Shown one piece after another: positions 19,421 to 45,672 of a stretch of DNA of 64,000 bases. Below the pieces are notes generated by a model. It worked only from the letters and a program-made list of their open reading frames with translations, searched no databases and was not told the origin of the DNA. Positions within the stretch are counted from its first letter, which is position 1, and every line of letters begins with the position of its first letter. The DNA is from Cellulomonas sp. ES6 (GTDB lineage: Bacteria; Actinomycetota; Actinomycetes; Actinomycetales; Cellulomonadaceae). The position numbers and the translations under genes are program-made. Location: NCBI RefSeq assembly GCF_030053835.1, contig NZ_CP125655.1, positions 62,001 through 126,000 on the forward strand, given 5' to 3'.

Positions 19421-19448
19421 TACGACGTCCTCAGCGAGGGAGCATCAC

Positions 19449-21716
19449 ATGTCCACCACCGCAGTACCCCAGTCCGGCACCGACGCCACCGCGGGTGCCT
19501 GGAGCGGTTTCGTCACCGGACCCTGGTGTGACGGGATCGATGTCCGCGACTTCATCCAGCGCAACTACACCCCGTACACGGGCGACTCGGCGTTCCTCGC
19601 CGGCCCGACGGAGCGCACCACGGGCATCTGGGCGAAGCTCAGCGCGATGTTCCCGGAGGAGCGCGCCAAGGGCGTGTACGACATCGACAACCACACCCCG
19701 TCGACCATCGTGTCCCACGCCCCGGGCTACATCGACCAGGACAACGAGCTCATCGTCGGCCTGCAGACCGACGCCCCGCTGAAGCGCGCCATGATCCCCA
19801 ACGGCGGGTGGCGCATGGTCGAGAAGTCGCTCGAGACCTACGGCTACGAGGTCGACGCCGAGGTCGCCAAGATCTTCACGACGTACCGCAAGACGCACAA
19901 CGACGGCGTGTTCGACGTCTACCCGCCGAACGTCCGCGCGGCCCGCTCCTCGCACATCATCACCGGCCTGCCGGACGCCTACGGCCGCGGCCGGATCATC
20001 GGCGACTACCGCCGCGTCGCGCTCTACGGCATCGACGCGCTGATCGAGGGCAAGCGCCTCGAGCGGCACGAGATGGACATGGAGCCGTCGGTCGAGGACA
20101 TCATCCGCGACCGCGAGGAGAACGCGGAGCAGATCCGCGCGCTCGTCGAGCTCAAGCAGATGGCCGCCTCCTACGGCTACGACATCTCCAAGCCGGCCAC
20201 CGACGCCCGCGAGGCCGTGCAGTGGCTGTACTTCGCCTACCTCGGCGCCGTGAAGGAGCAGAACGGCGCGGCCATGTCGCTGGGCCGGGTCTCGACCTTC
20301 CTCGACGTCTACATCCAGCGCGACCTCGCCTCCGGTGCGATCACCGAGGAGTTCGCGCAGGAGCTCATCGACGACTTCGTCATCAAGCTGCGCATCGTGC
20401 GGTTCCTGCGCACCCCCGAGTACGACTCGCTGTTCTCCGGCGACCCGACCTGGGTCACCGAGTCCATCGGCGGCATCGGCGAGGACGGCCGGCCGCTGGT
20501 CACCAAGTCGTCGTTCCGGTTCCTGCAGACGCTCTACAACATCGGCCCGGCCCCGGAGCCGAACCTGACCGTGCTGTGGAGCAACCGGCTGCCCGAGGGC
20601 TTCAAGAAGTTCTGCGCGCAGGTCTCGATCGACACCTCGGCGATCCAGTACGAGTCCGACGAGCTCATCCGCACCTCCTGGGGCGACGACGCGGCCATCG
20701 CGTGCTGCGTCTCCCCGATGCGGGTCGGCAAGCAGATGCAGTTCTTCGGCGCCCGCGTCAACATCGCCAAGGCGCTGCTGTACGCGATCAACGGCGGCCG
20801 CGACGAGGTCTCCGGCAAGCAGGTCGCGCCGGTCAGCGCCCCGGTCGAGGGCGACGTGCTGGACTACGACGACGTCGCGGCGAAGTACGACAAGCTGCTC
20901 GACTGGCTGGCCGAGACCTACGTCGACGCGCTCAACTGCGTGCACTACATGCACGACAAGTACGCGTACGAGCGCCTCGAGATGGCCCTGCACGACCGGA
21001 CGATCCTGCGGACCATGGCGTGCGGCATCGCCGGCCTGTCGGTCGTCGCGGACTCGCTGTCGGCCATCAAGTACGCCAAGGTCACGCCGGTGCGGGACGA
21101 GGACGGCCTGGTGACGGACTACGTCATCGAGGGCGACTACCCGAAGTACGGCAACGACGACGACCGCGCGGACGACATCGCCGTGGGCATCACCAAGGCC
21201 TTCATGGAGAAGATCCGCCACCACAAGACGTACCGGAACGCGCTGCACACCCAGTCGGTGCTGACCATCACGTCGAACGTCGTCTACGGCAAGGCCACGG
21301 GCAACACCCCCGACGGCCGCCGCGCCGGCGAGCCGTTCGCCCCGGGCGCCAACCCGATGAACGGGCGCGACTCGCACGGCATGCTCGCCTCCGCGATGTC
21401 GGTCGCGAAGCTGCCGTACTCCGAGGCGATGGACGGCATCTCGCTCACCTCGACGGTCGTGCCCTCGGGCCTCGGCCGCACCAAGGACGAGCAGGTGGCG
21501 AACCTGGTGGGCCTCATGGACGCGTACAACGTGTCCTCCGGGTACCACCTGAACGTCAACGTCCTCAACCGGGACACCCTCGAGGACGCCATGGAGCACC
21601 CCGAGAAGTACCCGCAGCTCACCATCCGGGTGTCCGGCTACGCCGTGAACTTCGTCCGGCTGACGCGCGAGCAGCAGCTCGACGTGCTGTCCCGGACGTT
21701 CCACGGCGGGCTCTGA
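19449..21716 (+). CDS. pflB: Formate C-acetyltransferase (pyruvate formate-lyase)
   Basis: This 755-residue glycyl-radical enzyme converts pyruvate and CoA to acetyl-CoA and formate without oxygen. The catalytic pair is Cys419-Cys420 ([10 protein letters not shown]) and the radical glycine is Gly730 in RVSGYAV, placed as in the E. coli enzyme. ATG 19449 follows GAGGGAG; an in-frame GTG at 19404 lies inside the promoter palindrome and is rejected. The activase gene follows after a hairpin. Three palindromes upstream suggest oxygen/redox control. The radical enzyme is oxygen-sensitive, so the host must ferment at least part of the time. Confidence 0.97.
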
Positions 21717-30698: not shown

Positions 30699-31026
30699 TG
30701 CGTGCGGCCACCTCGCGCGCCGGGCCCCTCGCGCCGCGTGCCCGCTGCGCCCGGACCTGCTCCGCCCCGGACCTGCTCCGCCCGGGGCCCCGGGCCCAGG
30801 CCCGGTCCCAGGTCCGGCGCCCCACGGCGCACTACCTTGTGACTCGGTTCGCAAAGTCGTCCGGCGCCGGTACCGAACCCGTCGCGCGCGGTACGCAAGG
30901 CCGAGGGGCGGCCTACCCAAGCGCGACCGGGCGGCGCGCGAGCGCCCCGAGCGGCCCCGCGGACCCGGCAGGTTGTCCCGTGATCGCCCCGACACGGGAG
31001 TCGGGGCTCGCTGAGGAGGGCGTCGG
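30699..31026 (+). promoter_or_regulatory. Promoter region of the cai-fix cluster
   Basis: No gene seen. TTGTGA (30837-30842) and TCGCAA (30849-30854) form an imperfect TGTGA-N6-TCRCA palindrome, the CRP/FNR-family pattern, centred about 181 bp before the first gene. Two GGTAC motifs follow. GAGGAGGG (31011-31018) is the ribosome site of the MFS gene. No convincing -10/-35 pair could be assigned. The E. coli cai operon is known to need CRP and FNR, which makes the site notable. Confidence 0.4.
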
Positions 31027-32391
31027 ATGTCGCGCAGGACTATCGGCTCGGCCGACCGGGAGGTCGGGGCGGCGGGGCTCAGCCCGGCCCGTCGATGGAT
31101 CGTGCTGATCCTGGTCAGCATGGGCAGCTCCACCATCTATGCCCCGGCCTACCTGAAGAACACCTTCTACGACGCGCAGCTCGAGTCGCTGCACCTGACC
31201 AACACGCAGGTCGGGCAGCTCATGAGCGCGTACGCCTGGACCGCCGTCGCGGTCTACCTGTTCTCCGGCCTCATCGCCGACCGGGTGCGCATGCGCACGC
31301 TGTCCGCCACCGGCTTCTTCACGACCGCGGCGCTGACGTTCTGGTACGCGATGCTGCCGTCGTTCGGCGTGCTGATCGGGATCTTCATCGGCATGGGCCT
31401 GTCCACGATCCTGCTGTGGTGGGGCGTGCGGTACAAGCTCGTGCGGCTGGTCTCCACCGAGGAGGACTACTCGCGCTCGATCGGCATCAGCTACGGGTTC
31501 TACGGCGCGGCCGGCCTGCTGATCGGCGTCATCGGCACGTGGGTGCTGTCGGCATTCGCCGACGACGCGCAGGGCGCGTTCCGGACCTTCCTGCTGGTCA
31601 TCGGCGCGATGATCGCGCTGCTCGGCGTGCTGTCGCTGGTGTTCATCCCGCGGTTCGAGGGTGAGATCAGCGGCGAGGGCTCCGTGCGGGCCGTGCTCGT
31701 CGACGCCTGGCGGGCGCTGGCCAACCCGGTGGTGCTGCTGACGTCCGGCTGCCTGTTCTTCGTCTACTTCTTCTACACCTGCACGTCCTACACGGCGCCG
31801 TACATGACGGCGCTCGGCGCGGACGCCACGGTCACCAACGCGGTCTCGGTCGTGCGGACCTACGGCATCACCCTGCTCGCCGGCCCGCTGTTCGGGATGC
31901 TCGCCCACAAGGCGAAGAAGTCCTCGCTGGTGATCTGGATCGGCTCGGCGCTCGCCGCCGTCGCGTTCGGCGTCGTCGCGGCGCTGCCGGGCGAGGAGGG
32001 CAGCATCGTCGCGATCGCGGTGCTGGCGGTCGCGCTCGGGTTCATCGCCAACGGCGTGTTCGGCATCTGCTCCGGCATGCTGACCGAGGGCAAGGTGCCG
32101 CTCGCGGCGTTCGGCGCGGCCACCGGCGTGCTGTCGGTCATCGGGTTCCTGCCCGACACGTTCTCCTCGATCTGGCTCGGCTCGATCCTGGACGACGCGG
32201 AGGCCGCGGGCGACGTGACGACCGCGTACCCGACGGTGTTCCTCATCCTCGCCGCGATCGCCGTGGTGGCCGCGCTGGCCGCGCTCGCCCTGCAGCTCTA
32301 CGTGCGCTCGCACCGGGGCCGCCTGGAGGCCGCGTACGCCGCGGGCGCCGGGGACACCACGGGCGCCGCGGCGGTGGGGGCGGCGGCCTGA
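31027..32391 (+). CDS. MFS transporter, first gene of the cai-fix cluster
   Basis: A 454-residue major facilitator with about 12 helices and the loop GLIADRVRMRTLS after helix 2. It resembles the nitrate/oxalate and glycerol-phosphate type carriers with Trp-rich helix WYAMLPSFGVLIGIFIGMGLSTILLWWGVRYKLVR. As the first gene of the CoA-linked reduction operon it is the best candidate for substrate uptake or substrate/product exchange in place of the betaine antiporter CaiT. The ATG of the next gene overlaps its stop by one base. Confidence 0.85.
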   Translation: MSRRTIGSADREVGAAGLSPARRWIVLILVSMGSSTIYAPAYLKNTFYDAQLESLHLTNTQVGQLMSAYAWTAVAVYLFSGLIADRVRMRTLSATGFFTTAALTFWYAMLPSFGVLIGIFIGMGLSTILLWWGVRYKLVRLVSTEEDYSRSIGISYGFYGAAGLLIGVIGTWVLSAFADDAQGAFRTFLLVIGAMIALLGVLSLVFIPRFEGEISGEGSVRAVLVDAWRALANPVVLLTSGCLFFVYFFYTCTSYTAPYMTALGADATVTNAVSVVRTYGITLLAGPLFGMLAHKAKKSSLVIWIGSALAAVAFGVVAALPGEEGSIVAIAVLAVALGFIANGVFGICSGMLTEGKVPLAAFGAATGVLSVIGFLPDTFSSIWLGSILDDAEAAGDVTTAYPTVFLILAAIAVVAALAALALQLYVRSHRGRLEAAYAAGAGDTTGAAAVGAAA

Positions 32392-33416
32392 TGGCGGCGG
32401 TCGACGTGCTGGCGCGCCTCACCCCGGGGATGCGGGAGGTCCTGGAGATCCAGGCCGACCTCGCGGCCCGGCTGGCCCGGCCCGGGTCCGACCTGGAGGT
32501 GCTGCGGGCGAACTACGCCGCTGAGCACCGCTGGTGGAACGAGGGCGGGCCGCGGATGGCGCGCAGCACGTCGGCCGTCGTGGCCACCCCGCACGGGCCG
32601 GTGCCCGTCCGGGTGCACCACCCCGAGCCCGTCCCCGGGGACCCGGGTCCGGCCGGCACGGTCGTCTACCTGCACGGCGGCGGGTTCGTGCTCGGGGACC
32701 TGGACTCCTACGACCGCATCCTGCGCGAGCTCGCCGCGGCCGGCGGCGCGGTGGTGGTCGGCGTCGCGTACAGCCTCTCGCCGGAGGCCAAGGTGCCGCA
32801 GGCCGTCGAGGAGGCGGCGGCCGTCGTGCGGCACCTCGCGGCCCACCCCGGCGACCTGGGTGTCCCGCCCGGGCCGGTCGCCCTGGCCGGTGACTCGGCG
32901 GGCGCGTCGATCGCCCTGGCGACGGCCCTGCACCTGCGGGCCGCCGACGGGCCGCGACCGTCCGCGCTGCTGCTCTGGTACGGCCTGTACGGGCTGCGCG
33001 ACTCCGCATCGCGGCGCCTGCTGGGCGGCCCGTGGGACGGGCTCGCCCCGGAGGACCTGGCGTTCTACACCGCGGCCTACACCGCGGGCCCGGACGACCT
33101 CACCGGCCCGGCGGTCGACTGCCTCGGCGCCGACCCGGACCTGCTCGCGTCGCTGCCGCCGACCTACGTGGCCGCGACCGACCTCGACCCGCTGCTGGAC
33201 GACTCCGTGGCCCTCGCCGGGCTGCTGGAGCACCACGGCGTGCCGCACCGCCTGCACGTGCTGACCGGCGTGCTGCACGGCTTCCTGCACTGCTCCCGGA
33301 CGCTGCCCGAGGCCCGGGAGGCCCTGGCGGCGGGCGCCGCGTTCCTGCGCGCGCACCGCCTGCCCGCGCACCACCCCCTGGAGAACCGAGAGGCCCACCG
33401 ATGGATTTCCGACTGA
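32391..33416 (+). CDS. Alpha/beta-hydrolase esterase of the HSL family
   Basis: A 341-residue esterase. The oxyanion motif HGGGF is at about residues 95-99, the nucleophile Ser169 lies in GDSAGAS, and likely Asp and His of the triad are in [11 protein letters not shown] and HGFLH. Family members hydrolyse short-chain acyl esters. Within a carnitine-type operon it could release carnitine or another quaternary alcohol from short acylcarnitines; this is inference, as no esterase occurs in the enterobacterial cai operon. It overlaps caiA by 16 bases. Confidence 0.82.
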
Positions 33417-34534
33417 CCGAGGACCAGCAGCTGATGGTCCAGGCCGTCCGCGAGCTGATGGAGAGCGAGAGCTGGGAGCCGTACTTCGCGCAGTGCGACG
33501 CCGAGCACGCCTACCCGCAGCGCTGGGTCGCCGCGCTGTGCGGGCTGGGGGTCGACACGATCCTGCTGCCCGAGGAGCACGGCGGGCTCGACGCCGGCTG
33601 GACGACCGTCGCGGCGGTCTGGGAGGAGCTAGGCCGCCTGGGCGCACCCACGTACGTGCTGTACCAGCTGCCGACGCTGCGCACCGTGCTCGAGGTCGGC
33701 ACGCCCGAGCAGATCGAGCGGATCCTGTCCTACGTCGGGACCGGCAGGCAGATCTGGAACTTCGCGATGACCGAGCCGGGCGCCGGCTCCAGCTTCGCCG
33801 CGATGTCCACCACGTACACGCGTCGCGACGGCAAGGTCTACCTCAACGGCCACAAGACGTTCATCACCTCGTCCCTGGGCGTGGACCAGCTCGTGGTCAT
33901 GGCGCGCGACGCCGACGACATGGACCAGTACACCGAGTGGTTCGTCGACCTGTCGCTGCCCGGGATCACGCGCGAGCCGCTCGACAAGCTGGGCCTGCGC
34001 ATGGACTCGTGCTGCGAGATCTACTTCGACCAGGTGGAGCTGCGCGAGGAGGACCGGTTCGGCGGCGAGGGGCAGGGCTTCGCGCGGACCGTCGCGGACT
34101 TCGACCTGGAGCGGTTCCTCGTGGCGGCGTGCGACTACGGCTGGGCGCTGTGCGCGTTCGAGGACGCCGTGCGGTACGCCAACCAGCGCGAGCAGGGCGG
34201 GCAGGCGATCGGCCGCTACCAGCTCGTGCAGGACAAGATCGCCCGGATGCGCATCGCGCTCACCACCATGCGCGCGATGGTCTACGAGACCGCCTGGAAG
34301 GCCGACCACGGCCTGCTCGGCAAGGGCGACGCGTCGATGGCCAAGCTGTACTGCACGCAGGCGGCGGCGCAGGTCGTCGACGACGCGATCCAGGTGCTGG
34401 GCGGCATCGCGGTGACCGGCGCCCACCGGGTCGCCCGGTTCTACCGCGACCTGCGCGTGGAGCGGATCTCCGGGGGCACCGACGAGATGATGGTGCTCAC
34501 CGTCGCCCGCGCGGCGCTCAAGGAGTACCGGTGA
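33401..34534 (+). CDS. caiA: Crotonobetainyl-CoA reductase-like acyl-CoA dehydrogenase
   Basis: A 377-residue flavoprotein collinear with E. coli CaiA (380 aa) over its length. Shared stretches include [57 protein letters not shown] and [20 protein letters not shown]. CaiA reduces crotonobetainyl-CoA to gamma-butyrobetainyl-CoA with electrons believed to come from FixABCX, encoded further down this cluster. ATG 33401 is fixed by the conserved MDF start. Stop overlaps caiB by 4 bases. The family call is firm from recalled sequence; the exact acyl group remains to be shown. Confidence 0.9.
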
Positions 34535-35745
34535 GCGCCGCCGGGGGCGCCGTCCCCGAGTTCGGCGTGCTGTCCGGCGTGAAGGTCGTCTACGCGGCCG
34601 TCGAGATCGCCGCGCCCACGGCCGCCGCGCTGATGGCCGAGTGGGGCGCCGACGTGGTGTGGATCGAGAACACCCGCACGGGCGACTCGATGCGCGACAC
34701 CGCCTGGGTCAAGGAGATGGAGCGCCGCAACCAGCGGTCCGTCGCCCTGAACCCGTTCACCGACCAGGGCCGCGAGGTGCTGCTGGACCTGGTCGCGGAC
34801 GCCGACATCTTCATCGAGTCGTCCAAGGGACCCACGTACGCCCGGCGCGGCATCACCGACGAGCTGCTCTGGGAGCGCAACCCCGCGCTCGTCATCGTGC
34901 ACGTGTCCGGCTTCGGCCAGTACGGCGTGCCCGAGCGCGTGAACCGCGCCGCCTACGACCTCACCGTCCAGGCGTACTCCGGCTACCTCGCGCAGAACGG
35001 CACCCCCGAGCAGCCCATGGCGCCGCTGCCGTACGTGGGGGACTACTTCACGTCCGAGATGGTCACGGCGTCGGCGCTCGCGGCCCTGCACAAGGCCCGG
35101 ACCACCGGGCAGGGCGAGAGCATCGACGTGGCGATGTACGAGGTGATGCTGCGCGTCGGCGCGTACTACCTCATGGACTACCTCAACGCCGGCACCCGCT
35201 ACCCGCGCCCGGGCGCCCGGCACCCCAACCTGTGCGGCATCGGCGAGTACCGGTGCGCGGACGGGTTCATCGGGCTGTGCGTCTACGGCGTCCCGCAGAA
35301 CAAGTACCTGCTGGAGCGCATCGGCCTCGGGCACCTGTGGGGGACCGAGGACTACCCGGAGGACACCGCGGCGCTCTGGCTCGACGGGCCCGCGGCGCAG
35401 CTCATCGAGGAGCACCTCGACGCGTTCTGCCTCACCCAGAAGGCGCGGGAGCTCGAGGACGAGCTCTCGGCCGTCGGGATCGCGGCGAACGCGGTGCTGG
35501 AGTTCGACGACCTGCTGGCCGAGGAGCACGTGGCGCAGCGCGAGGCGATCGTCGACTGGCGCACGCACGACGGCGACCCCGTGCGCGGCGTCGGCATCGT
35601 GCCGAAGTTCGTCCGACACCCGGGCCGGATCTGGCGCCCCATGCCGACGCTCGGCATGGACACCGACACCGTGCTCGCCGAGGCGGGGTACGCGCCGGAG
35701 CGCATCGAGCGCCTGGCGGCCGACGGGACGATCCGGAGAGGGTGA
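34531..35745 (+). CDS. caiB: CaiB-like L-carnitine CoA-transferase (class III)
   Basis: A 404-residue family III CoA-transferase (E. coli CaiB has 405). Collinear stretches: [58 protein letters not shown] and [15 protein letters not shown]. The catalytic aspartate equals Asp171 in YVGDYF, matching Asp169 of CaiB. It moves CoA from the product thioester onto incoming carnitine or crotonobetaine so activation is only needed once. GTG 34531 overlaps the caiA stop. Confidence 0.9.
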
Positions 35746-35751
35746 ACGACG

Positions 35752-35779
35752 CGGGCCCGGGGCGTCGTCCCCGGGCCCG
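35752..35779 (+). terminator. Hairpin between caiB and caiC
   Basis: CGGGCCCGGGG (35752-35762) pairs perfectly with 35769-35779 around a 6-nt loop, within the 42-base gap. Since caiC follows on the same strand, partial termination or transcript protection is more likely than an operon end. Confidence 0.5.
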
Positions 35780-35787
35780 GCACGACC

Positions 35788-37398
35788 ATGGACACTGCAC
35801 GCGAGGAGACGCTCGGCGACCTGTGGCACGCCCAGGTGCGCCGGCGGGGCGACCACCCGTTCCTGGTGGCCGAGGACGCCGCGGGCGCGGTGCGCACGTT
35901 CGGCTACGCCGACTTCGACGCCCTCGTGGCGTCCGCGGCCGCCGCGCTGCGCCGGCTCGGGGTCGGCCCCGGGGACGCCGTGGTGCTGCACCTGCCGCTG
36001 GGCGCCGAGCTGGTGCGCCACCTGCTGGCCGTCATGGTCTCCGGCGCGGTCGCGGTGGTGCAGGACCCGGGCAGCCCGGCGCCGGAGTGCGCGCACGTGG
36101 CGCAGCGGGTCCGGGCGCGGCTCGCCGTCTGCACGCCGGAGGCGGCCGGGCGGTACGCGGGGGTGCCCGGGCTGCGGGTCGTGGGGCCGGCGGCCGCGGG
36201 CGCGGTGGGCGTCGACGCGGTGGGCGCGGCGGGCGCACCCGGGACCGGGGAGCCCCTCGGCGCCGGCGTGACCGGGAGCGACACCGCCGGGGTGGTGTTC
36301 ACGTCCGGGTCGACCGCCACCCCCAAGGGCGTCGTCCTCACCCACGCCAACCTGGTGTTCTCCGGGCGGTTCGTGCAGTGGCAGGCCGCGCTCACCCCCG
36401 CCGACCGGCTGCTGACGACCATGCCCGCCTGCCACGTGAACTTCCAGCTCAACGCGCTGCTGCCGGTGGTCGCGGCCGGCGCCACCCTGGTGGTCGTCGA
36501 GCGGTACTCGGCGCGGCGGTTCTGGCACCAGGTGCAGGCGCACCGCGCCACCGTCGTGCAGTCCATCGCGATGATCGTGCGCACCCAGCTGTGCCGGCCC
36601 GTCGAGCCGGGGGAGCGGGACCACGACGTCCGCGAGATCCTGTACTACCTGCCGCTGCCCGACGCCGAGAAGCTGGAGTACGAGCGCCGCTTCGGCGTCC
36701 GGCTGCTCAACTCGTACGGCACCAGCGAGTGCCTGGTCGGGGCGATCACGGACCCGCCCGCCGGCGAGCGGCGCTGGCCGTCCGTCGGCCGCGTCGGCCC
36801 GGGCTACGAGGCGCGCGTCGCGGGGCCGGACGGTCGCGCGCTGCCGCCCGGCGAGCCGGGGGAGATCCAGCTCCGCGGCGAGCCCGGCGTCAGCCTCATG
36901 GCGGGGTACCTCGACGACCCGGAGTCCACCGCGGCGGCGTACGACGCCGACGGCTGGATGCGCACGGGCGACCTCGGGTACGTGGACGCCGACGGCTGGT
37001 ACTACTTCCTGGACCGGCGCTCGCGGATCATCAAGCGCGGCGCGGAGAACGTCTCCCCGGCGCGCGTCGAGGCGGTGCTGCTCGCGCACCCCGGCATCGC
37101 GCAGGCCGCGGTCGTCGGCGTCCCCGACGCGGTCTACGACGAGGCGGTGCTCGCCGTCGTCGTCCCGCGGCCCGGCGTCGCGCTCACCGAGGCGGACGTC
37201 CGCGCCCACTGCGCCGCGCACCTGCCGGCACCCGCCGTCCCCGGCACCGTCCAGGTCGCGGACCGGCTGCCGCGCACCGCCAGCTACAAGGTCGCCACCG
37301 GGGCGCTGTCCGCCCGCGCGGCCGCCCGGGCCTCTGGCACCGCGGGGCGCGCCCGGGGCGCCCGGCCCGCCGAGGGCGCCCGGCCCGCCCGGTCCTGA
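35788..37398 (+). CDS. caiC: CaiC-like carnitine/crotonobetaine CoA ligase
   Basis: A 536-residue AMP-forming acyl-CoA synthetase. P-loop FTSGSTATPKGVVLTHANL (about residue 171), YGTSE in motif A5, TGDLGY, IIKRGAENVSPARVE, and the catalytic lysine in RTASYKVATG. Stretches such as RRWPSVGRVGPGYEA and VERYSARRFWHQVQAHRATVVQSI mirror E. coli CaiC. It primes the cycle by making the first CoA thioester from ATP. Two Ala/Gly-rich insertions (about 145-165 and the final 25 residues) are not in CaiC. No clear ribosome site; it may depend on coupling from caiB. Confidence 0.85.
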   Translation: MDTAREETLGDLWHAQVRRRGDHPFLVAEDAAGAVRTFGYADFDALVASAAAALRRLGVGPGDAVVLHLPLGAELVRHLLAVMVSGAVAVVQDPGSPAPECAHVAQRVRARLAVCTPEAAGRYAGVPGLRVVGPAAAGAVGVDAVGAAGAPGTGEPLGAGVTGSDTAGVVFTSGSTATPKGVVLTHANLVFSGRFVQWQAALTPADRLLTTMPACHVNFQLNALLPVVAAGATLVVVERYSARRFWHQVQAHRATVVQSIAMIVRTQLCRPVEPGERDHDVREILYYLPLPDAEKLEYERRFGVRLLNSYGTSECLVGAITDPPAGERRWPSVGRVGPGYEARVAGPDGRALPPGEPGEIQLRGEPGVSLMAGYLDDPESTAAAYDADGWMRTGDLGYVDADGWYYFLDRRSRIIKRGAENVSPARVEAVLLAHPGIAQAAVVGVPDAVYDEAVLAVVVPRPGVALTEADVRAHCAAHLPAPAVPGTVQVADRLPRTASYKVATGALSARAAARASGTAGRARGARPAEGARPARS

Positions 37399-37464
37399 CC
37401 CGCACGACCCCGCACCACCCCGTACGTCCCCGCACCACCCGCACCGATGGAGGAGCAGCACGAC

Positions 37465-38319
37465 ATGGCGATCAAGACCGAGATGGTCGGGCAGTGGTTC
37501 GGCCCGTTCGAGCGCGAGTACACCACCCGGGACCTCAGCCTGTTCGCGCTCGGGTCCGGGTGCGCCGTGGACGGCCGCACCGACCTGGAGTACGTCTACG
37601 AGAAGGGCATGAAGGTGCTGCCGACGTTCGGCGCCATGCCGATCGTCGACTCCGAGGTCACGCGCACCATCGACTACGGCTACGACTACGCCGGGTCCCT
37701 GCACTGGAGCTTCGACCTGACGTTCCACCAGCCGATCACCCGGCTCGAGGGCCGGCTGTCGACCCGCGTGCTGCTCAAGGGCCTCTACGACCGCGGCCCG
37801 GGCAAGGGCCTGCTCGCCCAGCACGTCGGCGAGACCCGCGACGAGGACGGCACGCTGCTGTTCACGAACGAGTCGTGGGACTGCCTCATCTACGACGGCG
37901 GCTGGGGCGGCCCGGCCGCGCCGAAGGACCTCGTGGAGATGCCCGACCGCCCCGCCGACATTGCCGTCGAGGAGCGCATCCCCGAGAACCAGGCGCTCAT
38001 CTACCGGCTCTCCGGGGACTACCACCCGCAGCACGTGGACTGGGAGTACGCCGCCGCGAACGGCCAGCCCCGGCCGATCCTGCACGCCGTGAGCTTCGCG
38101 GGCGTGGTCTGCCGGCACGCCATCCGCTCGCTGTTCCCGGGCGAGCCCGAGCGGCTCCGGCGGTTCAAGACCCGCATCACCGCGCCCGTGCTGCCCGGCT
38201 CGACGCTGCGCACCGAGCTGTGGCGCATGGACGAGCACCGGGCGCACTTCCGCCTGGTCGACGCCGACGACCCGACCGCCAAGCCGCACCTCAACTGGGG
38301 GGTCGTCGAGTGGAGCTGA
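37465..38319 (+). CDS. MaoC-type double hot-dog hydratase
   Basis: A 284-residue two-hot-dog enzyme of the hydratase 2 family. The C-terminal half carries YRLSGDYHPQH, matching the (R)-enoyl-CoA hydratase motif with Asp185 and His190 as the catalytic pair; the usual Asn between them is His. I chose ATG 37465, 9 nt after GGAGGAG; the ATG at 37447 overlaps that ribosome site. In this cluster it sits where the crotonase-fold CaiD would act, so it probably hydrates/dehydrates the enoyl-CoA (L-carnitinyl-CoA/crotonobetainyl-CoA or an analogue). This non-orthologous replacement is an inference. Confidence 0.8.
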   Translation: MAIKTEMVGQWFGPFEREYTTRDLSLFALGSGCAVDGRTDLEYVYEKGMKVLPTFGAMPIVDSEVTRTIDYGYDYAGSLHWSFDLTFHQPITRLEGRLSTRVLLKGLYDRGPGKGLLAQHVGETRDEDGTLLFTNESWDCLIYDGGWGGPAAPKDLVEMPDRPADIAVEERIPENQALIYRLSGDYHPQHVDWEYAAANGQPRPILHAVSFAGVVCRHAIRSLFPGEPERLRRFKTRITAPVLPGSTLRTELWRMDEHRAHFRLVDADDPTAKPHLNWGVVEWS

Positions 38320-39692
38320 GCCCCGGGCGGCAGACGGTGCTGCTCGACGACGTGGGGATGACGCCGTTCCTCAAGCGGGTGACGCTGTTCTCCGCCGGCG
38401 GGCCGTTCCTCGACGGGTACGTGCTGTCGATCATCGGGGTCGCGCTCATCCAGCTCACGCCCGCCCTGGACCTCGACGCCCGCTGGACCGCCCTCGTCGG
38501 CGTCGCGGCGCTCGTCGGGCTGTTCCTCGGCACGTCGGTCGGCGGCTACCTGACCGACCGCATCGGCCGCAAGCGGATGTTCGTGGTCGACATCATCGGC
38601 ATCGCGGTCATCTCCGCGGCGACGGCCCTGGTCGCGGAGCCCTGGCAGCTCGTCGCCATGCGGTTCGCCATCGGCGTCGTCATCGGCGCGGACTACCCGA
38701 TCGCGACGTCGCTCGTCGCCGAGTTCACGCCCCGCCGGCACCGCTCGGTCTCCATGGGGCTGATCGCCGCCGCCTGGTACCTCGGGGCCAACGCCGCCTA
38801 CCTCGTGGGGTACCTGCTGCTCGACGTCGACGGCGGCTGGCGGTGGATGCTCGCCAGCGCCGTCGTGCCCTGCCTGGTCATCCTCATCGGGCGGTGGGAC
38901 ATCCCCGAGTCGCCGCGGTGGCTGGCCCGCCGCGGCCGGGGCGAGGAGGCGCGCGCCATCGTGCACCGGGTGCTCGGCGCCGACGTGCAGCTCGAGCCCG
39001 AACCCGAGCGGACGGAGTCCTACGCCGCCCTGTTCCGCCGCGGCTACCTCGGAAAGGTGCTGTTCGTCGGGACCATCTGGCTCTGCCAGGCGGCACCGAT
39101 GTTCGCCATCTACACCTACGGGCCGCAGATCATGGGCGAGCTCGGGCTCGGCGAGCGCCAGGTCGCGACGCTCGGCGAGATCGTCATCGGCACGTTCTTC
39201 CTCGTGGGCTGCCTGCCCGCCATGCACTGGGCGAACTCGCTCGGCCGCCGCCGGCTGCTCGTCGTCAGCTTCGCGATCATGACCGCGGCGCTCGCGGTGC
39301 TCGGCGCCCTGCCGTCGCCCGCGCTGCCGGCCGTCGTCGCGTGCCTCGGGCTGTACGCGTTCTTCTCCGGCGGGCCGGGCAACCTGCAGTGGCTGTACCC
39401 GAACGAGCTGTTCCCCACGGAGATCCGCGCCTCCGCCGTGGGCGCCGCGATGGCCGTGAGCCGCATCGGCACGGTCGTGTCCACGTACGTGCTGCCGGGG
39501 TTCCTGCTCGCGCACGGGACCCGCGCCACCATGCTCGCCGGCGCCGCGATCTCCGGCCTCGGCCTCGTCGTCTCGGTGCTCGCGGCGCCCGAGACCCGCG
39601 GCCTGACCCTCACCGAGTCCGCCGCCCTGCGGCTGGGACCCCCCGGCCGCCGCCGGCCCGCCCCCGACCCCGGCGTGCCGCACCGACCGTGA
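38310..39692 (+). CDS. MFS transporter, sugar/metabolite-porter type
   Basis: A 460-residue carrier with 12 helices. Signatures: GGYLTDRIGRKRMFVVD (loop 2-3), IPESPRWLARRGR after helix 6 and PNELFPTEIRASAVG and PETRGLTLTE near the end, typical of the sugar-porter/metabolite-H+ symporter branch. GTG 38310 overlaps the MaoC stop by 10 bases; later in-frame starts (GTG 38337, ATG 38358) cannot be excluded. Position suggests import of a betaine-like substrate or export of its reduced product. Confidence 0.83.
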   Translation: MELSPGRQTVLLDDVGMTPFLKRVTLFSAGGPFLDGYVLSIIGVALIQLTPALDLDARWTALVGVAALVGLFLGTSVGGYLTDRIGRKRMFVVDIIGIAVISAATALVAEPWQLVAMRFAIGVVIGADYPIATSLVAEFTPRRHRSVSMGLIAAAWYLGANAAYLVGYLLLDVDGGWRWMLASAVVPCLVILIGRWDIPESPRWLARRGRGEEARAIVHRVLGADVQLEPEPERTESYAALFRRGYLGKVLFVGTIWLCQAAPMFAIYTYGPQIMGELGLGERQVATLGEIVIGTFFLVGCLPAMHWANSLGRRRLLVVSFAIMTAALAVLGALPSPALPAVVACLGLYAFFSGGPGNLQWLYPNELFPTEIRASAVGAAMAVSRIGTVVSTYVLPGFLLAHGTRATMLAGAAISGLGLVVSVLAAPETRGLTLTESAALRLGPPGRRRPAPDPGVPHRP

Positions 39693-39723
39693 CCCCCGCG
39701 GTCACCGACGCAAGGAGAACCAG

Positions 39724-40506
39724 ATGACCATCGTCGTGGCCTGCAAGTGGGCCCCGAACCCCCAGGACGCGTCCGTCGGACCCGACGGCGCCGTGGACTG
39801 GGGCCGCGCGAAGCCCGCGGTGTCCGAGTACGACCCGGTGGCCGTGGAGGTCGGCCGGCTGCTGGCCGACGCCACCGGCTCCGAGCTGGTCGGCGTCACG
39901 GTCGGCGGCCCCGACGTGGCGTCCGCGCTGGCCCGCAAGTCGCTGCTGTCACGCGGGCTGGACCGGCTGGTCGTGCTGGCGGACCCGGCGCTCGCCGCCG
40001 CGGGGACCACCGCGACCGGGCTCGCGCTGGCGGCGCTCGTGCGGCACGTCGGGGAGGTGGACGTGGTGCTCGCGGGCGACGCGTCCGTCGACTCCGGCGC
40101 GCAGCTCGTCCCCGCCGTGCTGGCCGGCGCGCTCGGCTGGCCCGCCCTGCTCGGCGTCGGCGCGGTCTCGGCGGTCGACGGCGGCACCGCGTCGCTGACC
40201 GTCGAGCGCGCCACCGGGACCGGCTCGGAGGACCTCGCGGTGCGCGGGCCGGTGGTGCTCGCCGTCGCGGCGGACGCCGTCGTCCCGCGCGTCCCCGGGA
40301 TGAAGGACATCCTGGCGGCGGGCAAGCGGCCGGTCGAGCAGCTCGACCTGCAGACCCTGCCCGTCGAGCTGCCGGCCGGGCCGGACGTCGTCGGCACCGC
40401 CCCGCCCGCGCTGCGGGCCCGCCGCCGCCAGGTGGTCGACGCCTCCGACGCGCCCGCCGCCGCCGCCGAGCTCGTGGCGGCGCTGCGCGCCGACGCCGTG
40501 ATCTGA
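39724..40506 (+). CDS. fixA: FixA, electron-transfer flavoprotein beta-like subunit
   Basis: A 260-residue ETF beta homologue: VACKWAPNP at the start, PAVSEYDPVAVEVGRLL, then DVVLAGDASVDSGAQLVPAVLAGALGWP. In FixABCX complexes it pairs with FixB; the complex passes electrons from NADH to quinone and to low-potential ferredoxin, or to CaiA in the cai pathway. ATG 39724 follows AAGGAGAA. It starts 31 bases after the MFS gene and 16 bases before fixB. Confidence 0.9.
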   Translation: MTIVVACKWAPNPQDASVGPDGAVDWGRAKPAVSEYDPVAVEVGRLLADATGSELVGVTVGGPDVASALARKSLLSRGLDRLVVLADPALAAAGTTATGLALAALVRHVGEVDVVLAGDASVDSGAQLVPAVLAGALGWPALLGVGAVSAVDGGTASLTVERATGTGSEDLAVRGPVVLAVAADAVVPRVPGMKDILAAGKRPVEQLDLQTLPVELPAGPDVVGTAPPALRARRRQVVDASDAPAAAAELVAALRADAVI

Positions 40507-40522
40507 CCGAGGGAGACCCATC

Positions 40523-41464
40523 GTGACCACCTACATCCTCACCGCGGGCGACGCCCGCATCGGCCGCCTGGTGGAGCTCGCCGCCGGCCCGACCACCGTC
40601 GTCGTCGTCGGCGACGGTCGGACCGCCGCCGCCGTGGCCCGCACGCCCGGCGTCGACCGGGTGCTGCATGTCGAGCCCGCTCCCGGCGCCCCCGCGGAGA
40701 CCTGCGCCGCCGCCGTGGCCGGCCTCGTCGCGGACGCCGCGCCCGCGCTCGTGCTCGCCGCGCCCCGCCCGGCGGACCGCGTGCTCGCGGGCGCCGTCGC
40801 CGCCCGCCTGGCCGCGCCCGTCCTCACCATGGTCCGGGCCGTCGAGGTCGCGGACGGCGGCGTCGAGGTGACGCGCTCGGTCTTCGGCGGCATCGCCGAG
40901 CGGACCGAGCGCGTCACGGGCCCGGCCGTCGTCGTCACCGACGGCGGCACCGCCGCGGACGGCGGCACCGGCGCGGACGGCGGCACCGCCCCCGTCGTGG
41001 ACGCCGGGGCCGTACCCGCCGACCCGGCCGTGACCGTGACCGCCACCAGGGTCGCGGAGCGCGCGGCGGTCGACCTGTCCCGCGCCCCGCGCGTGGTCGC
41101 GGCGGGCCGGGGCGTGCGGCGCCAGGAGGACCTGGCGCTCGTGGAGGGCCTCGCCGCGGCGCTCGGCGCCGAGGTGGCGTGCTCCCGGCCGCTCGCGGAG
41201 GGCGTCGGGTGGCTGCCGCACGACCGGTACGTCGGCGTGACCGGCCAGCACGTCGCGCCCGAGCTGTACGTCGCCGCCGGCGTGTCCGGGCAGCTCCAGC
41301 ACGTCGTCGGGGCCCGCGGCGCGGGCACCGTCGTCGCCATCAACACCGACCCCGGCTGCCCGTACTTCGCCGAGGCCGACTACTGCGTGGTGGGCGACCT
41401 GTACGAGGTGCTGCCGGCGCTCACCGCGGCGCTGGCGGCGCCCGGCCCGGGGGCCGCGTCGTGA
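40523..41464 (+). CDS. fixB: FixB, electron-transfer flavoprotein alpha-like subunit
   Basis: A 313-residue ETF alpha homologue. The C-terminal FAD domain is clear: RVVAAGRGVRRQEDLALVEGLAAALGAEVACSRPL, GVTGQHVAPELYVAAGVSGQLQHVVG and INTDPGCPYFAEADY. The middle holds three tandem copies of an 18-bp unit encoding DGGTxA (40940-40993), apparently a flexible linker. GTG 40523 follows GAGGGAGA. It overlaps fixC by 4 bases. Confidence 0.9.
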   Translation: MTTYILTAGDARIGRLVELAAGPTTVVVVGDGRTAAAVARTPGVDRVLHVEPAPGAPAETCAAAVAGLVADAAPALVLAAPRPADRVLAGAVAARLAAPVLTMVRAVEVADGGVEVTRSVFGGIAERTERVTGPAVVVTDGGTAADGGTGADGGTAPVVDAGAVPADPAVTVTATRVAERAAVDLSRAPRVVAAGRGVRRQEDLALVEGLAAALGAEVACSRPLAEGVGWLPHDRYVGVTGQHVAPELYVAAGVSGQLQHVVGARGAGTVVAINTDPGCPYFAEADYCVVGDLYEVLPALTAALAAPGPGAAS

Positions 41465-42756
41465 CCGCCGAGCCGGACTTCGACGTCGTCGTCGTCGGCG
41501 CGGGCATCGCGGGCTGCGTCACGGCCTACCGGCTGGCGCAGGCGGGCCGGTCGGTGGCGCTCGTCGAGCGCGGCGCGGCGCCGGGGTCCAAGAACCTGTC
41601 CGGCGGGGTGCTGTACTCGCGCGGCCTGGAGGAGGTCTTCCCGGACCTGCTGGAGCGCGCGCCGATCGAGCGCCGCATCACCCGCAACTACCTCCAGCTC
41701 CTCAACGCGGAGTCCGCGGTCGGCATCGACTACCAGGACCGCCGGCTCGCGGAGCCCGTGAACGCGGTGACCGTGCTGCGCGCCCGGTTCGACCCGTGGC
41801 TCGCCGAGCAGTGCGAGGAGGCCGGCGCCGACCTGCTGAGCGGCGTCCGCGTCGACGGGGTGCTGCGCGAGGACGGCCGCGTCGTCGGCGTCCGCGCCGG
41901 GGAGGACGAGCTGCGGGCGCACGTCGTCGTGGCCGCGGACGGGGTGAACTCGTTCCTCGCCCGGAGCGCGGGCCTGCGCGGCCGCGAGCCGCTGCACCAC
42001 CTGGCGCTCGGGGTGAAGGCCGTCGTCGCGCTGCCCGAGGAGCGGCTGCGCGAGCGGTTCCACCTGACCGGCGACGAGGGCGTCGCGTACGCCGTCGTCG
42101 GGGACTGCACGCGCGGGGTCGGCGGGGGCGGGTTCCTCTACACGAACCGCGCGTCGCTGTCCGTCGGGGTGGTGCTGCGCCTGGACGACCTGGTCGCGAA
42201 GGGCGAGGACTCCGCGGCGGTGTTCGACCACTTCCTGGCGCACCCGTTCGTGGCGCCGCTGCTCGAGGGCGGGGAGGTGGTGGAGTACGGCAGCCACCTG
42301 GTCGCCGAGGGCGGCCTGGCCATGCTCGGCGAGGTCGTCACCGACGGCATGGTCGTCGTGGGCGACGCGGCGGGGCTGACCATCAACACCGGCCTCACCG
42401 TCCGCGGGATGGACCTCGCGGTCGCGTCCGGGGTGGCGGCGGCGTCGGCGGTCGGCCGGGCCCTCGACGCGGGCGACACCTCGCGGGACGGACTGGCGGG
42501 GTACCGGCGGGAGCTCCTCGGCTCGACCGCCGGGCGCGACCTGCAGACCTACGCCAAGGCGCCGGCCTTCCTGGAGAGGGAGCGGATGTACCACGACTAC
42601 GGAGCGCTGCTGGGCGACGTCCTGCACCGCGTGTACGACCACGACCTGACGCCGCGCCGGCACCTGCTCGACGTGGCGCGTGCCGAGCTCCGGCGCTCGC
42701 CCGTGCGGGTGCGGGACCTGGTCCGCGACGGCCTGGCGGGGGTGCGGGCGCTGTGA
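41461..42756 (+). CDS. fixC: FixC, ETF-quinone oxidoreductase-like flavoprotein
   Basis: A 431-residue FAD protein (E. coli FixC has 428). Dinucleotide motif VVGAGIAGCVTAYRLAQAGRSVALVERG, then SKNLSGGVLYS, VVAADGVNSFLARSAGLR, and VVGDAAGLTINTGLTVRGMDLAVASG. The FixC/FixX pair resembles ETF-QO split into two chains and hands electrons to menaquinone. Both ends overlap neighbours by 4 bases (fixB and fixX), so the complex is made in step. Confidence 0.93.
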   Translation: MTAEPDFDVVVVGAGIAGCVTAYRLAQAGRSVALVERGAAPGSKNLSGGVLYSRGLEEVFPDLLERAPIERRITRNYLQLLNAESAVGIDYQDRRLAEPVNAVTVLRARFDPWLAEQCEEAGADLLSGVRVDGVLREDGRVVGVRAGEDELRAHVVVAADGVNSFLARSAGLRGREPLHHLALGVKAVVALPEERLRERFHLTGDEGVAYAVVGDCTRGVGGGGFLYTNRASLSVGVVLRLDDLVAKGEDSAAVFDHFLAHPFVAPLLEGGEVVEYGSHLVAEGGLAMLGEVVTDGMVVVGDAAGLTINTGLTVRGMDLAVASGVAAASAVGRALDAGDTSRDGLAGYRRELLGSTAGRDLQTYAKAPAFLERERMYHDYGALLGDVLHRVYDHDLTPRRHLLDVARAELRRSPVRVRDLVRDGLAGVRAL

Positions 42757-43040
42757 GGACGACCTCGGTCCCGGACCGTCTCGCGGCCAACAGCTACGTC
42801 ACCGACGAGGAGCAGCCGCACATCCGCGTCGACCAGGAGCTCGCGCGCCGCACCGGCTGCGGCGACCGGCTGATCGCCGTCTGCCCCGCGAAGGTCTACT
42901 CCCGCGAGGCGGACGGCACGATCGGCGTCGAGCACGCCGCGTGCCTCGAGTGCGGCGCGTGCCTCGCGGTGGCCGACCCCGGCGTCCTGGAGTGGACCTA
43001 CCCGCGCGGCGGCTTCGGCGTCGCGTTCCGGGAGGGCTGA
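42753..43040 (+). CDS. fixX: FixX, ferredoxin-like subunit
   Basis: A 95-residue iron-sulfur protein, the same length as E. coli FixX. Cluster cysteines are in VCPAKVY and CLECGACL (four in all, one 4Fe-4S cluster); the ends EEQPHIRVD and WTYPRGGFGVAFREG are highly characteristic. GTG 42753 overlaps the fixC stop. It is the last gene of the cluster. Confidence 0.95.
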   Translation: MRTTSVPDRLAANSYVTDEEQPHIRVDQELARRTGCGDRLIAVCPAKVYSREADGTIGVEHAACLECGACLAVADPGVLEWTYPRGGFGVAFREG

Positions 43041-43092: not shown

Positions 43093-45672
43093 TCAGCGCT
43101 GCGCGCAGGTGAGCCAGGTGCGCGCGGCCCGCGCGAGCCCCTCCCGGGAGTTCACACCGACCTTCCGGCACGCGGACAGGATGTGGTGCTCGACCGTCCG
43201 GGCGCTCAGCACCATCCGGGTCGCGATCTCGGGCGAGGACAGGCCCCGCGCCACCAGCACCGCGACCTCGCGCTCCCGCGACGTCAGCCGCACCGCCCGG
43301 TCGAACGGCAGGAACAGCCCGCACAGGTCGCGCCCGCGCAGCCCGCCCTGGCTCCACGCGGTGTCCGCCCGCTCGATGGCCGCGGCCGGCTGCCCGTCGG
43401 CGAGCAGCCGCACCGCCCGGGCCACGGCGGCGCGGACCGCGAACTGCCGCAGGCCCGCGCGCCGGAGCTCCGGCTCGAGCGCGGCGAGGCGCTCCGGGTC
43501 GCCCGACGCGACGGCGGTGGCGAACCCCGCGAGGTGCGTGAGCAGCGGCGCGTCGCTGCGCGAGGCGGCCTCCGCGAGGTGGGCGGCGCGCGCCGGGTCG
43601 GGGCGCCGCTCCACCGCCGCGACCCCCGCCACGACGCCCGCGGGCAGGTACCCCGCGTCGAGCCGCTCGACGGCCACCTGCCAGATCCGGTCCGCCGTCC
43701 CGGCCGCGACGGCCGGGTCGTCCTCGTCCTGGATCAGCGGGGCGACGAGGTCGCTGGACTGGTACGGGTGCGGCCCGCGGCGTGCCGGGACCGAGCGCGC
43801 CTGCACCGCCAGCGACTCCGCGAACTCCCGGTGCCCCTGCCAGGTCGCGGCCTCCGCCGCGAGGGCGATCAGGCCCGTGACGAGCTGCGGCTCCTGCGGG
43901 CACGCGGTGCTGAGCGCCAGGGCGTCGCAGGTCAGGGCGTCGAGCTCCATCGCACGCCCCTGCACCGCGAGCGCGAGACCCGCGACCGAGGCGTGCGCCA
44001 GCAGCGAGACGGGGTCCAGCTCCTGCCGCGCGCGCTCGACGCCGGCCAGCGCGGTCGCGGCGGCGGCGGAGACGTCGCACGTGTAGAGCAGCGCCAGGCC
44101 GCGGGCGGTGCCGGCGATCCACCGGGCCCGCGGGTCGCGCGGCTCGGGCCCGTCCAGCAGCTCCAGCGCCTCCCGGGCGCGTCCCGCGGCCACGAGCGTC
44201 TCGGCCCGCACGGCGCGCGCGAGCCCGTCCGAGGGAGCGGGCGCCCGGACCGCGGCGGTCGCGGCCGCCACGACCGGCGCCGGCCCGGCGTCCGGGGACA
44301 CCGGGGAGCCGCTCGTCAGCGCCAGGTGGTCGAGCACGGCGCCCAGCGCCGGCCCGTGCTCGGGCAGGTCGGCGCCGTGCTCCGCGACCACCAGGGCGGC
44401 CGCGGCGGGGGAGCCGGACTCGCGTCCCCGGTAGACGGCGTGGGTGGCCAGGAACGCCGCGCGCTCGTCCGGGTTGCCCCGGTCGGCGCGGGTGCGCTCC
44501 AGCACGTGCTCGACCTGGTGCGGGCGGGCGTGGGTGAGCAGCATCGCCTCCAGCAGCTCCGCGCCGGCCGCGGCGTCCGGGTCGGCCTCCCAGCGGCGGC
44601 GCGCGTCGCGGCGGCGCTGCTCCCAGCGCTGCGCGATCAGCCGGCGGGCCAGCGGCGCGGCGGTCCGCACGCCGGCGGGGGCCGGGTCCTCGCCCTGGAG
44701 CTCCTCGGCGACGCGCGCCCGCACCAGCAGGCCGCGCGTCGTGGCGCTCTCCTGCACCAGGTAGTCGGCGAGCAGCGGCGGGAACACCCCGACCAGCGCG
44801 TGCTCGCCGTCGGAGGCCACCTGCACCAGGCCGGACTCCTCGAGCCGCACGAGCGCGGCGGTGCCCGCGAGCCGGCCCGCCGCGGCCAGCGACACCGTCC
44901 CGGCGAACGCCAGCACCGTCAGCGCGTCGCGCAGGTCGTCGTCGAGGTCGGCGAGGAACGGCTCGACGGTCTGCGCCAGCGACGTGGTCCACAGGTCGCC
45001 CCGGGCCACCCAGAGGCCGTCGCGCACGACGAGGCGGTTCTCGCGCCGGGCGGTGTCCACCAGCGCCTGCACCAGGCCGGGCAGCCCGCCCGTGGCCGCG
45101 GCGACGCGCGCCACCGCGGCGGGCTCCACGCCCCGGCCGAGCATCGTGTGCAGCAGCTGGTGCACGCCGGCGAACGACAGCGGGTCGACGGTGACGCGGG
45201 CCGCGGGCTGCAGGCCGTCCGCGAGCAGCGCCGCCGCGGTGCCGCCGCCCCGGCCGCACGCGATGACGACGCGGGTGCCCAGTCGCGCCCGGGCCGCGAG
45301 CACCGCGCCGACCGTGCCGCTGTCCAGGTCGTCCGCGTCGTCGACCAGCAGCACCGCACCGGGTGCGGCGAGCAGCTGCTCCAGCGACTCCACCGCGGCG
45401 CTGAGCACCCGCAGCTGCTGGGGTGCGCTCGGCAGCGCGACGCCGGCCACGGCGAGGGCGCCGAGCGTGCGGTCCCGCAGGGCGCGCACGCCGCGCAGCC
45501 GGACCGTGCCGACCCCGAGCGTCGCGAGCCGGTCGGCCACCTGGTCGAGCACGCACGAGCGTCCCGCCGCGCGCATCCCGACCACCTGGACGTGCGTCCC
45601 GTCCTGCAGGTAGCCGACGATGCGGGACACGGTGTCCGGGTGAAGCACGACGTCGTCTCTCACGCCCGTCAC
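43093..45672 (-). CDS. Large LuxR-family ATPase-type regulator
   Basis: An 859-residue LAL/MalT-like regulator: a nucleotide-binding region at the N-terminus, a long helical TPR-like middle, and a C-terminal LuxR HTH (LTSREREVAVLVARGLSSPEIATRMVLSARTVEHH). Walker B is AVLLVDDADDL, but the Walker A is GMRAAGRS (residues 32-39) with Arg38 where Lys is expected, so ATP hydrolysis may be altered. GTG 45672 is tentative; GTG 45663 is an alternative. Convergent to fixX, it is a candidate regulator of the cai-fix cluster, though adjacency is the only evidence. Confidence 0.8.
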   Translation of the reverse strand: MTGVRDDVVLHPDTVSRIVGYLQDGTHVQVVGMRAAGRSCVLDQVADRLATLGVGTVRLRGVRALRDRTLGALAVAGVALPSAPQQLRVLSAAVESLEQLLAAPGAVLLVDDADDLDSGTVGAVLAARARLGTRVVIACGRGGGTAAALLADGLQPAARVTVDPLSFAGVHQLLHTMLGRGVEPAAVARVAAATGGLPGLVQALVDTARRENRLVVRDGLWVARGDLWTTSLAQTVEPFLADLDDDLRDALTVLAFAGTVSLAAAGRLAGTAALVRLEESGLVQVASDGEHALVGVFPPLLADYLVQESATTRGLLVRARVAEELQGEDPAPAGVRTAAPLARRLIAQRWEQRRRDARRRWEADPDAAAGAELLEAMLLTHARPHQVEHVLERTRADRGNPDERAAFLATHAVYRGRESGSPAAAALVVAEHGADLPEHGPALGAVLDHLALTSGSPVSPDAGPAPVVAAATAAVRAPAPSDGLARAVRAETLVAAGRAREALELLDGPEPRDPRARWIAGTARGLALLYTCDVSAAAATALAGVERARQELDPVSLLAHASVAGLALAVQGRAMELDALTCDALALSTACPQEPQLVTGLIALAAEAATWQGHREFAESLAVQARSVPARRGPHPYQSSDLVAPLIQDEDDPAVAAGTADRIWQVAVERLDAGYLPAGVVAGVAAVERRPDPARAAHLAEAASRSDAPLLTHLAGFATAVASGDPERLAALEPELRRAGLRQFAVRAAVARAVRLLADGQPAAAIERADTAWSQGGLRGRDLCGLFLPFDRAVRLTSREREVAVLVARGLSSPEIATRMVLSARTVEHHILSACRKVGVNSREGLARAARTWLTCAQR

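Follow-up and report, generated by a model that had tools for sequence, protein, structure and literature searches.

A cai-fix gene cluster of Cellulomonas sp. ES6 with a probable role in the reduction of carnitine compounds

Gene content of the cluster

The window analyzed here is a 64 kb stretch (bases 62001-126000) of the single-contig 4.12 Mb genome of Cellulomonas sp. ES6. Positions 31027-43040 of the window are occupied by a cluster of 11 genes, all on the + strand, which encode CaiA, CaiB and CaiC homologues, a FixABCX set, two transporters, an esterase and a hydratase. This is the composition given by an earlier, sequence-only reading of the same DNA, which had overlooked the MaoC identity of the hydratase, the YaaU identity of one transporter, the probable acylcarnitine esterase and a probably linked LuxR gene. 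The genes, in their order, are:

31027..32391, + strand, MFS1 transporter (PF07690), proposed CaiT substitute
32391..33416, + strand, Aes-like alpha/beta-hydrolase (PF07859; NF007547 321.5 bits, cut-off 389 not reached), proposed acylcarnitine esterase
33401..34534, + strand, CaiA, predicted crotonobetainyl-coenzyme A (CoA) reductase (NF002885 652.6 bits, cut-off 540; tree)
34531..35745, + strand, CaiB, predicted CoA-transferase (NF002914 647.7 bits, cut-off 413)
35788..37398, + strand, CaiC-like betaine:CoA ligase (NF005947 503 bits, cut-off 651 not reached)
37447..38319, + strand, MaoC/hydratase-2 protein (PF01575 and PF22622; motif GDYHPQH; tied to CaiA), proposed carnitinyl-CoA dehydratase; judged by its homologues, a start at 37465 is likelier than that at 37447
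38358..39692 (possible upstream start 38337), + strand, MFS2, YaaU orthologue (57% to Escherichia coli YaaU)
39724..40506, + strand, FixA, electron transfer flavoprotein (ETF) beta subunit (PF01012; tree)
40523..41464, + strand, FixB, ETF alpha subunit (NCBIfam ETF-alpha models 179-183 bits, below cut-offs)
41461..42756, + strand, FixC, ETF-quinone oxidoreductase type (NF007450 408.7 bits, cut-off 466 not reached; tree)
42753..43040, + strand, FixX, ferredoxin-like with five cysteines (Thermotoga maritima EtfX, 7koe_D, E 2e-19)

Overlaps of 4 to 16 bases had been described for many junctions. They were found at five of the ten (1, 16, 4, 4 and 4 bases), and at the remaining five the genes stand about 16-66 bases apart, a distance that varies with the start chosen. 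Given these overlaps and short gaps, transcription of the 11 genes as one unit is plausible. The GTG start of CaiB at 34531 agrees with E. coli CaiB; CaiB searches were run with the piece from 34567. Other genomes carry this gene set too, which excludes a chance origin and confirms that the cluster is real.

Near full-length collinearity with the E. coli K-12 proteins was upheld for CaiA (62% identity over residues 1-377), CaiB (47% over residues 2-390) and CaiC (37% over residues 1-508). CaiA and CaiB score above their curated NCBIfam cut-offs. In a tree of 39 dehydrogenases, CaiA of the window and of E. coli fall in a clade of 28 rows (support 100/100), with E. coli YdiO and the YdiO-like protein of the ES6 genome outside it. 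The closest solved structure to CaiB is that of E. coli CaiB (396 bits), followed by another enzyme at 104 bits. CaiC falls short of its cut-off, though CaiC is still its best family; the next NCBIfam family scores 307 bits, 196 below. A position outside CaiABC, which would have spoken against the sequence-only reading, was thus seen neither for CaiA, by tree, nor for CaiB, by family score.

These scores, the CaiA tree, and the gene order and phenotype of a collinear cluster of the cheese bacterium Propionibacterium freudenreichii (see below) make CoA-linked reduction of carnitine and crotonobetaine, with electrons passing from FixABCX to CaiA, the best reading, as had been proposed. The cluster very probably lets its host use carnitine compounds when oxygen is scarce, and crotonobetaine would then serve as a quinol-linked electron acceptor. 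MFS1 would import carnitine or acylcarnitine and probably export gamma-butyrobetaine, and the Aes-like esterase would release carnitine from acylcarnitines. CaiC would prime the pathway with CoA, and CaiB would hand the CoA of the product on to the substrate. The MaoC protein would dehydrate carnitinyl-CoA to crotonobetainyl-CoA, which CaiA would reduce to gamma-butyrobetainyl-CoA with electrons delivered by FixCX and FixAB, most likely from menaquinol; control of the cluster may lie with the LuxR regulator and a protein of the CRP family. For ES6, we infer from sequence all of the reactions, the roles of MaoC, MFS1 and the esterase, the electron donor and direction, and the LuxR and CRP control.

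None of the 11 products matches E. coli CaiT, CaiD or CaiE (CaiE was sought in the cluster only), and the cluster is therefore not of the E. coli caiTABCDE type. Together with the low CaiC score and the broad families to which the esterase and MFS2 belong, this would suit a cluster that reduces another enoyl-CoA, for example one derived from an unsaturated acid, aliphatic or aryl, that the esterase releases. The CaiABC-type enzymes would then have a shifted specificity, comparable to the case of caffeate reduction. We regard such a substrate as unlikely, because CaiA and CaiB exceed carnitine-specific cut-offs, CarC of caffeate reduction is one among many moderate matches to CaiA (152.9 bits), and the collinear P. 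freudenreichii cluster has a carnitine phenotype. Close relatives of two of the proteins also adjoin a true CaiT: in Neobacillus (locus L012), CaiB and MaoC proteins 65% and 73% identical to those of the window lie beside a CaiT of 734.6 bits (cut-off 541).

Electron supply and direction

Identities to E. coli K-12 are 35% for FixA, 42% for FixB, 42% for FixC and 40% for FixX. The five cysteines of FixX are enough for one iron-sulphur cluster, and FixX from cai loci has four or five in 64 of 64 entries (one genome counted twice). EtfX of T. maritima, a subunit of a bifurcating enzyme, is reported to bind two [4Fe-4S] clusters (PMC10734219) and has eight cysteines in the alignment to the window FixX. 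Group 2 electron-bifurcating FixABCX is marked by two [4Fe-4S] clusters in FixX and by three motifs, a combination absent here: GxxSPTxV and RxGV were not found in the window FixA, and RPxFGG is altered to RSVFGG in FixB.

A bifurcating FixABCX, which would couple crotonobetaine or quinone reduction to the reduction of ferredoxin, would fit the presence of all four subunits, the match of FixX to EtfX along its whole length, and the Arg and FGG kept in FixB. The cysteine count of FixX, in the window and in the other cai loci, opposes it, and it is the least probable of the readings considered. The missing FixA motifs are weak evidence, since the bifurcation motifs were likewise not found in a paralogous ES6 set with eight cysteines (L127); the cysteine count is the better argument. 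Quinol-linked supply is likelier than bifurcation: from the ETF-quinone oxidoreductase type of FixC and the cysteine count of FixX, we infer a path from menaquinol through FixCX and FixAB to CaiA.

The same type of FixC, for which the PF21162 match is weak, and the reversibility in principle of all steps would also allow the oxidative direction, in which gamma-butyrobetaine is converted through crotonobetaine to carnitine and FixABCX passes electrons to the quinone pool, as in beta-oxidation. This direction seems improbable, only marginally less so than bifurcation. E. coli runs its cai and fix set for reduction, where fixA and fixB are reportedly required for anaerobic carnitine reduction according to a 2002 study, and P. 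freudenreichii carriers of the cluster are associated with more, not less, putative gamma-butyrobetaine. In favour of use under low oxygen, the window holds a pyruvate formate-lyase gene with a glycine-radical domain (19404-21716, + strand; PF02901 725.6 bits, PF01228), which fits anaerobic growth of the host.

Two further sets of related genes lie elsewhere in the ES6 genome. The second set (L112 7120-11656, within C1:1951000-1970000) comprises a YdiO-like dehydrogenase with FixA, FixB, FixC and FixX paralogues 60-69% identical to those of the window. The third (L127 5283-14026, within C1:1409000-1425000) comprises two distant acyl-CoA dehydrogenases, a type III CoA-transferase, and FixC-, FixX- (eight cysteines), FadK-, FixA- and FixB-like genes, and is possibly of the bifurcating type. 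In the FixA tree, the window FixA and that of the Ydi-like second set form a group (99/98) that includes neither E. coli FixA nor the FixA of the other actinobacterial layout described below; the FixC tree was made without the second FixC of the genome. From the FixA grouping, the electron-carrier part and the Cai part of the cluster seem to have different histories.

Dehydratase, transporters and esterase across genomes

A CaiB scan gave 80 loci, whose gene order was read by tblastn. The comparison below covers 75 loci, made up of 63 of these 80 (L066, L068 and L071-L085, with a distant CaiB or cut short, were dropped) and 12 of 16 further stretches (three of the ES6 genome, and L125, a copy of L020, were dropped); the CaiA-positive genome G492 and the Propionibacteriaceae stretches stand outside it.

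The hydratase that had been noted in the cluster is present, but it is a MaoC/hydratase-2 protein with double hot-dog domains by Pfam and no CaiD-type crotonase. The strongest sign that it belongs to the carnitine pathway is its tie to CaiA. A survey of Cellulomonadaceae found CaiA in 12 of 200 sampled genomes and the MaoC protein in those same 12; in a phylum sample of 396 genomes, CaiA occurred in eight and the MaoC protein in seven of these and, at the thresholds used, nowhere else. A crotonase of CaiD grade was not found in the ES6 genome, which gave three partial matches of at most 61 bits. Of 22 genomes searched in full, three have a CaiD orthologue (85-90%), and these are the ones whose locus contains caiD; six have only crotonases of at most 40%, and in 13 no crotonase was found at 1e-20.

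Of the 75 loci, 30 have MaoC without CaiD, 30 have CaiD without MaoC and 11 have both. MaoC occurs with CaiT and without CaiD in Neobacillus, Enterobacillus, a Halarcobacter metagenome-assembled genome and Endozoicomonas, and side by side with CaiD in Shewanella and Ferrimonas. Its family spans Actinomycetota, Bacillota, Pseudomonadota and Campylobacterota and, by database names, sulphate reducers and Sporomusa. Judged by gene content, it is found together with CaiD or in its place in several phyla.

Where the published hydratase-2 motif is GDxNxLH, GDxHxxH stands in 115 of the 120 MaoC homologues listed out of 1187 found; GDxFKVH stands in three, and the motif stretch is absent in two. An alignment of 38 members shows Asp191, His196 and Trp199 in all and His193 in 35; at position 214, where other hydratases have their catalytic Gly, 29 members have Ala and nine have Gly. 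Relative to the hydratase-2 motif YRLSGDxNxLHID, the window protein keeps Asp191 and His196 and has His193 for Asn and Ala214 for Gly. For the Phytophthora capsici MaoC, mutants of the Asp, the His and this Gly are reported to lose activity, to an extent that varies among them (PMC3823801), an argument that the active site is changed in the MaoC family of the cluster. Eukaryotic and bacterial hydratase-2 proteins (1s9c, 3khp and P. capsici MaoC) share with this family the two hot-dog domains and the catalytic Asp and His, and differ in having GDxNxLH in place of GDxH[PQ]QH and the catalytic Gly in place of the Ala of 29 of the 38 members.

Hydratase-2 enzymes normally yield the configuration opposite to that of crotonases, and L-carnitine, although labelled R under the rules of configuration, has the arrangement of the S-3-hydroxyacyl product of a crotonase. 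A hydratase 2 with ordinary stereochemistry would therefore handle D-carnitine. Tentatively, the MaoC proteins may form an unnamed, dedicated family of carnitinyl-CoA dehydratases, unrelated to CaiD, that either acts on D-carnitine or has a reversed face of attack, which the changes of Asn to His and Gly to Ala could have brought about. If D-carnitine is the substrate, Shewanella and Ferrimonas, with both enzymes, could interconvert the carnitine enantiomers. E. coli CaiD has itself been linked to carnitine racemase activity (PMC2131755), which argues against the need for a second enzyme. Several MaoC orthologues (among P0121-P0240) bear the public name 3-alpha,7-alpha,12-alpha-trihydroxy-5-beta-cholest-24-enoyl-CoA hydratase, probably a misannotation, as it is contradicted by gene context. 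A true CaiC-MaoC fusion in P0236 was rejected, as the letters between the domains look frameshifted by eye.

MFS1 was found in 28 of the 75 loci and CaiT in the other 47, with no locus holding both or neither. This mutual exclusion points to MFS1 as the substitute for CaiT, and MFS1, not the YaaU-like inner MFS2, is the favoured candidate. MFS2 was rejected for this role because it is YaaU, which occurs in 68 of the 75 loci alongside either carrier, CaiT included; in E. coli, yaaU comes directly after fixX. A search of solved structures with MFS1 gave no useful relative (a single match, E 0.008). A BCCT transporter gene lies just before the window (L126 4772-6052; 616.9 bits to PF02028). It is the best BCCT match in the ES6 genome and, at 28% identity to CaiT, was rejected as a hidden CaiT.

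The esterase shares 45% identity with Aes of E. coli, and an Aes-like gene accompanies 25 of the 28 MFS1 loci as against 12 of the 47 CaiT loci. It is a probable source of free carnitine from acylcarnitines. In Edwardsiella, Limnobaculum and Leminorella, the yaaU-fix-cai genes adjoin orthologues of Aes with 63-68% identity to the E. coli protein (L026, L027, L028, L031, L032 and L036, about bases 540-700), and Aes may act on acylcarnitines. If the esterase role holds, it offers a physiological role for Aes.

Several results weigh against the proposed use of carnitine. CaiC, the esterase and all four Fix proteins score below curated cut-offs. FixA is absent from 10 of the 75 loci, and four have neither MaoC nor CaiD; among these four, a crotonase of 39-40% lies near the Slackia locus L016, and L043 comes from a short contig. 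MFS1 was seen in actinobacterial loci only (28 of 28). The split between MFS1 and CaiT therefore follows phylum, and descent alone could explain it, descent and function being inseparable here. The MaoC active site departs from that of hydratase 2: His replaces Asn and, in the window, Ala replaces the catalytic Gly. A Gly-to-Ala mutant of the P. capsici MaoC is reported to have lost activity (PMC3823801). Nor would L-carnitine fit the usual stereochemistry of hydratase 2.

The gene order of the window, caiA-caiB-caiC-maoC-yaaU-fixABCX (type A), and a second order, caiA-caiB-fixAB-caiC-maoC-yaaU-fixCX (type B; C. citrea L020, L116, L118, L014, L135, L138 and L140), both occur in the genus of the window and lie on separate CaiA branches, which suggests that they were acquired separately. 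Some loci, such as L009 and L016, have no fix genes nearby. In Actinomycetaceae clusters, a metallo-beta-lactamase-like gene and, on the opposite strand, a TetR-like gene (both named by eye) lie between yaaU and fixA (L015 15176-16473; L011 15404-17400).

Candidate control elements and comparison with known systems

Two features that flank the cluster may control it and are taken as leads:

43093..45672, - strand, LuxR-family regulator of 859 amino acids (PF00196), convergent with the cluster
30838..30853, + strand, CRP-like site TGTGA-N6-TCGCA, 189 bases before MFS1

The LuxR gene was found beside the cluster in six relatives (L007, L008, L009, L010, L113 and L114) and had no match beside the remaining loci. 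Four of the six have no other tested flanking gene in common with the window, and the LuxR gene is probably linked to the cluster. The CRP-like site is the only match in the 64 kb, where 0.12 are expected, and at least one match occurred in 9 of 100 shuffles. At least nine of its ten positions are kept in 4 of 28 upstream regions (the window, L007, L113 and L116). Two close relatives conserve the site, and a type B locus has it in perfect form. Between caiT and fixA of E. coli, a pattern of this kind also has a match. Elsewhere in the window, the GC content dips to 0.64-0.65 at 58001-62000, adjoining a tRNA-Leu at 58309; the genes tested there are ordinary (an NT5C nucleotidase, an ANTAR response regulator and a binding protein).

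The joint presence of cai and fix genes in an actinobacterium had already been described and is not new. P. freudenreichii and P. acnes are reported to carry caiABC and fixABCX and may turn L-carnitine into gamma-butyrobetaine as terminal acceptor (PMC7650540). In P. freudenreichii, an MFS gene and an adjacent alpha/beta-hydrolase gene are clustered with caiABC, a further MFS gene, an enoyl-CoA hydratase gene and fixABCX; in yogurts prepared with 44 isolates, this cluster was linked, as a strain association, to depleted acylcarnitines and to more carnitine and putative gamma-butyrobetaine (PMC11007987). As caiD and caiT are described as missing there, the inner MFS and the hydratase were suggested as gap fillers (PMC11007987). 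No paper joining caiA, carnitine and Cellulomonas was found.

Gene for gene, the cluster of P. freudenreichii L139 is collinear with that of the window (MFS-hydrolase-caiABC-hydratase-MFS-fixABCX), and neither has caiD or caiT. Its hydratase is a MaoC protein with GDYHPQH, and identities to the window are 67% for CaiA, 62% for CaiB, 47% for CaiC, 70% for MaoC and 68% for FixX. The two clusters differ in belonging to different families, with enzymes 47-70% identical, and in that the phenotype is on the P. freudenreichii side only; in L139 the matches to the esterase and to MFS2 seem disrupted or truncated, whereas both genes are whole in the window.

The E. coli caiTABCDE and fixABCX-yaaU operons (L086, L087) share homologues of CaiA, CaiB, CaiC, FixA, FixB, FixC, FixX and YaaU with the window, but are two divergent operons, side by side, where the window has a single strand. 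The window has MFS1 for CaiT, MaoC for CaiD, no CaiE and an added esterase, and its FixA is closer to that of the second, Ydi-like ES6 set than to E. coli FixA. The E. coli ydiFO-ydiQRST-fadK set (L106) likewise combines an acyl-CoA dehydrogenase, a FixABCX-like set and a ligase, and FixC of the window is 43% identical to YdiS. CaiA of the window, however, is 44% identical to YdiO, which lies outside the CaiA clade, as against 62% to E. coli CaiA.

Gamma-butyrobetaine serves as a trimethylamine precursor, and a published screen for its makers uses six models (CaiT, CaiA, CaiB, CaiC, CaiD and CaiE) and reportedly does not name Propionibacterium, Schaalia or Slackia (PMC11857547). A screen that requires CaiT and CaiD would be expected to miss clusters of the MFS1 and MaoC type. 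The carnitine reading is well supported and not new, and the ES6 cluster is a further case of the kind described in P. freudenreichii. The comparison makes the vague parts of that known cluster testable, namely MFS1 in place of CaiT, MaoC in place of CaiD, and the role of the esterase.

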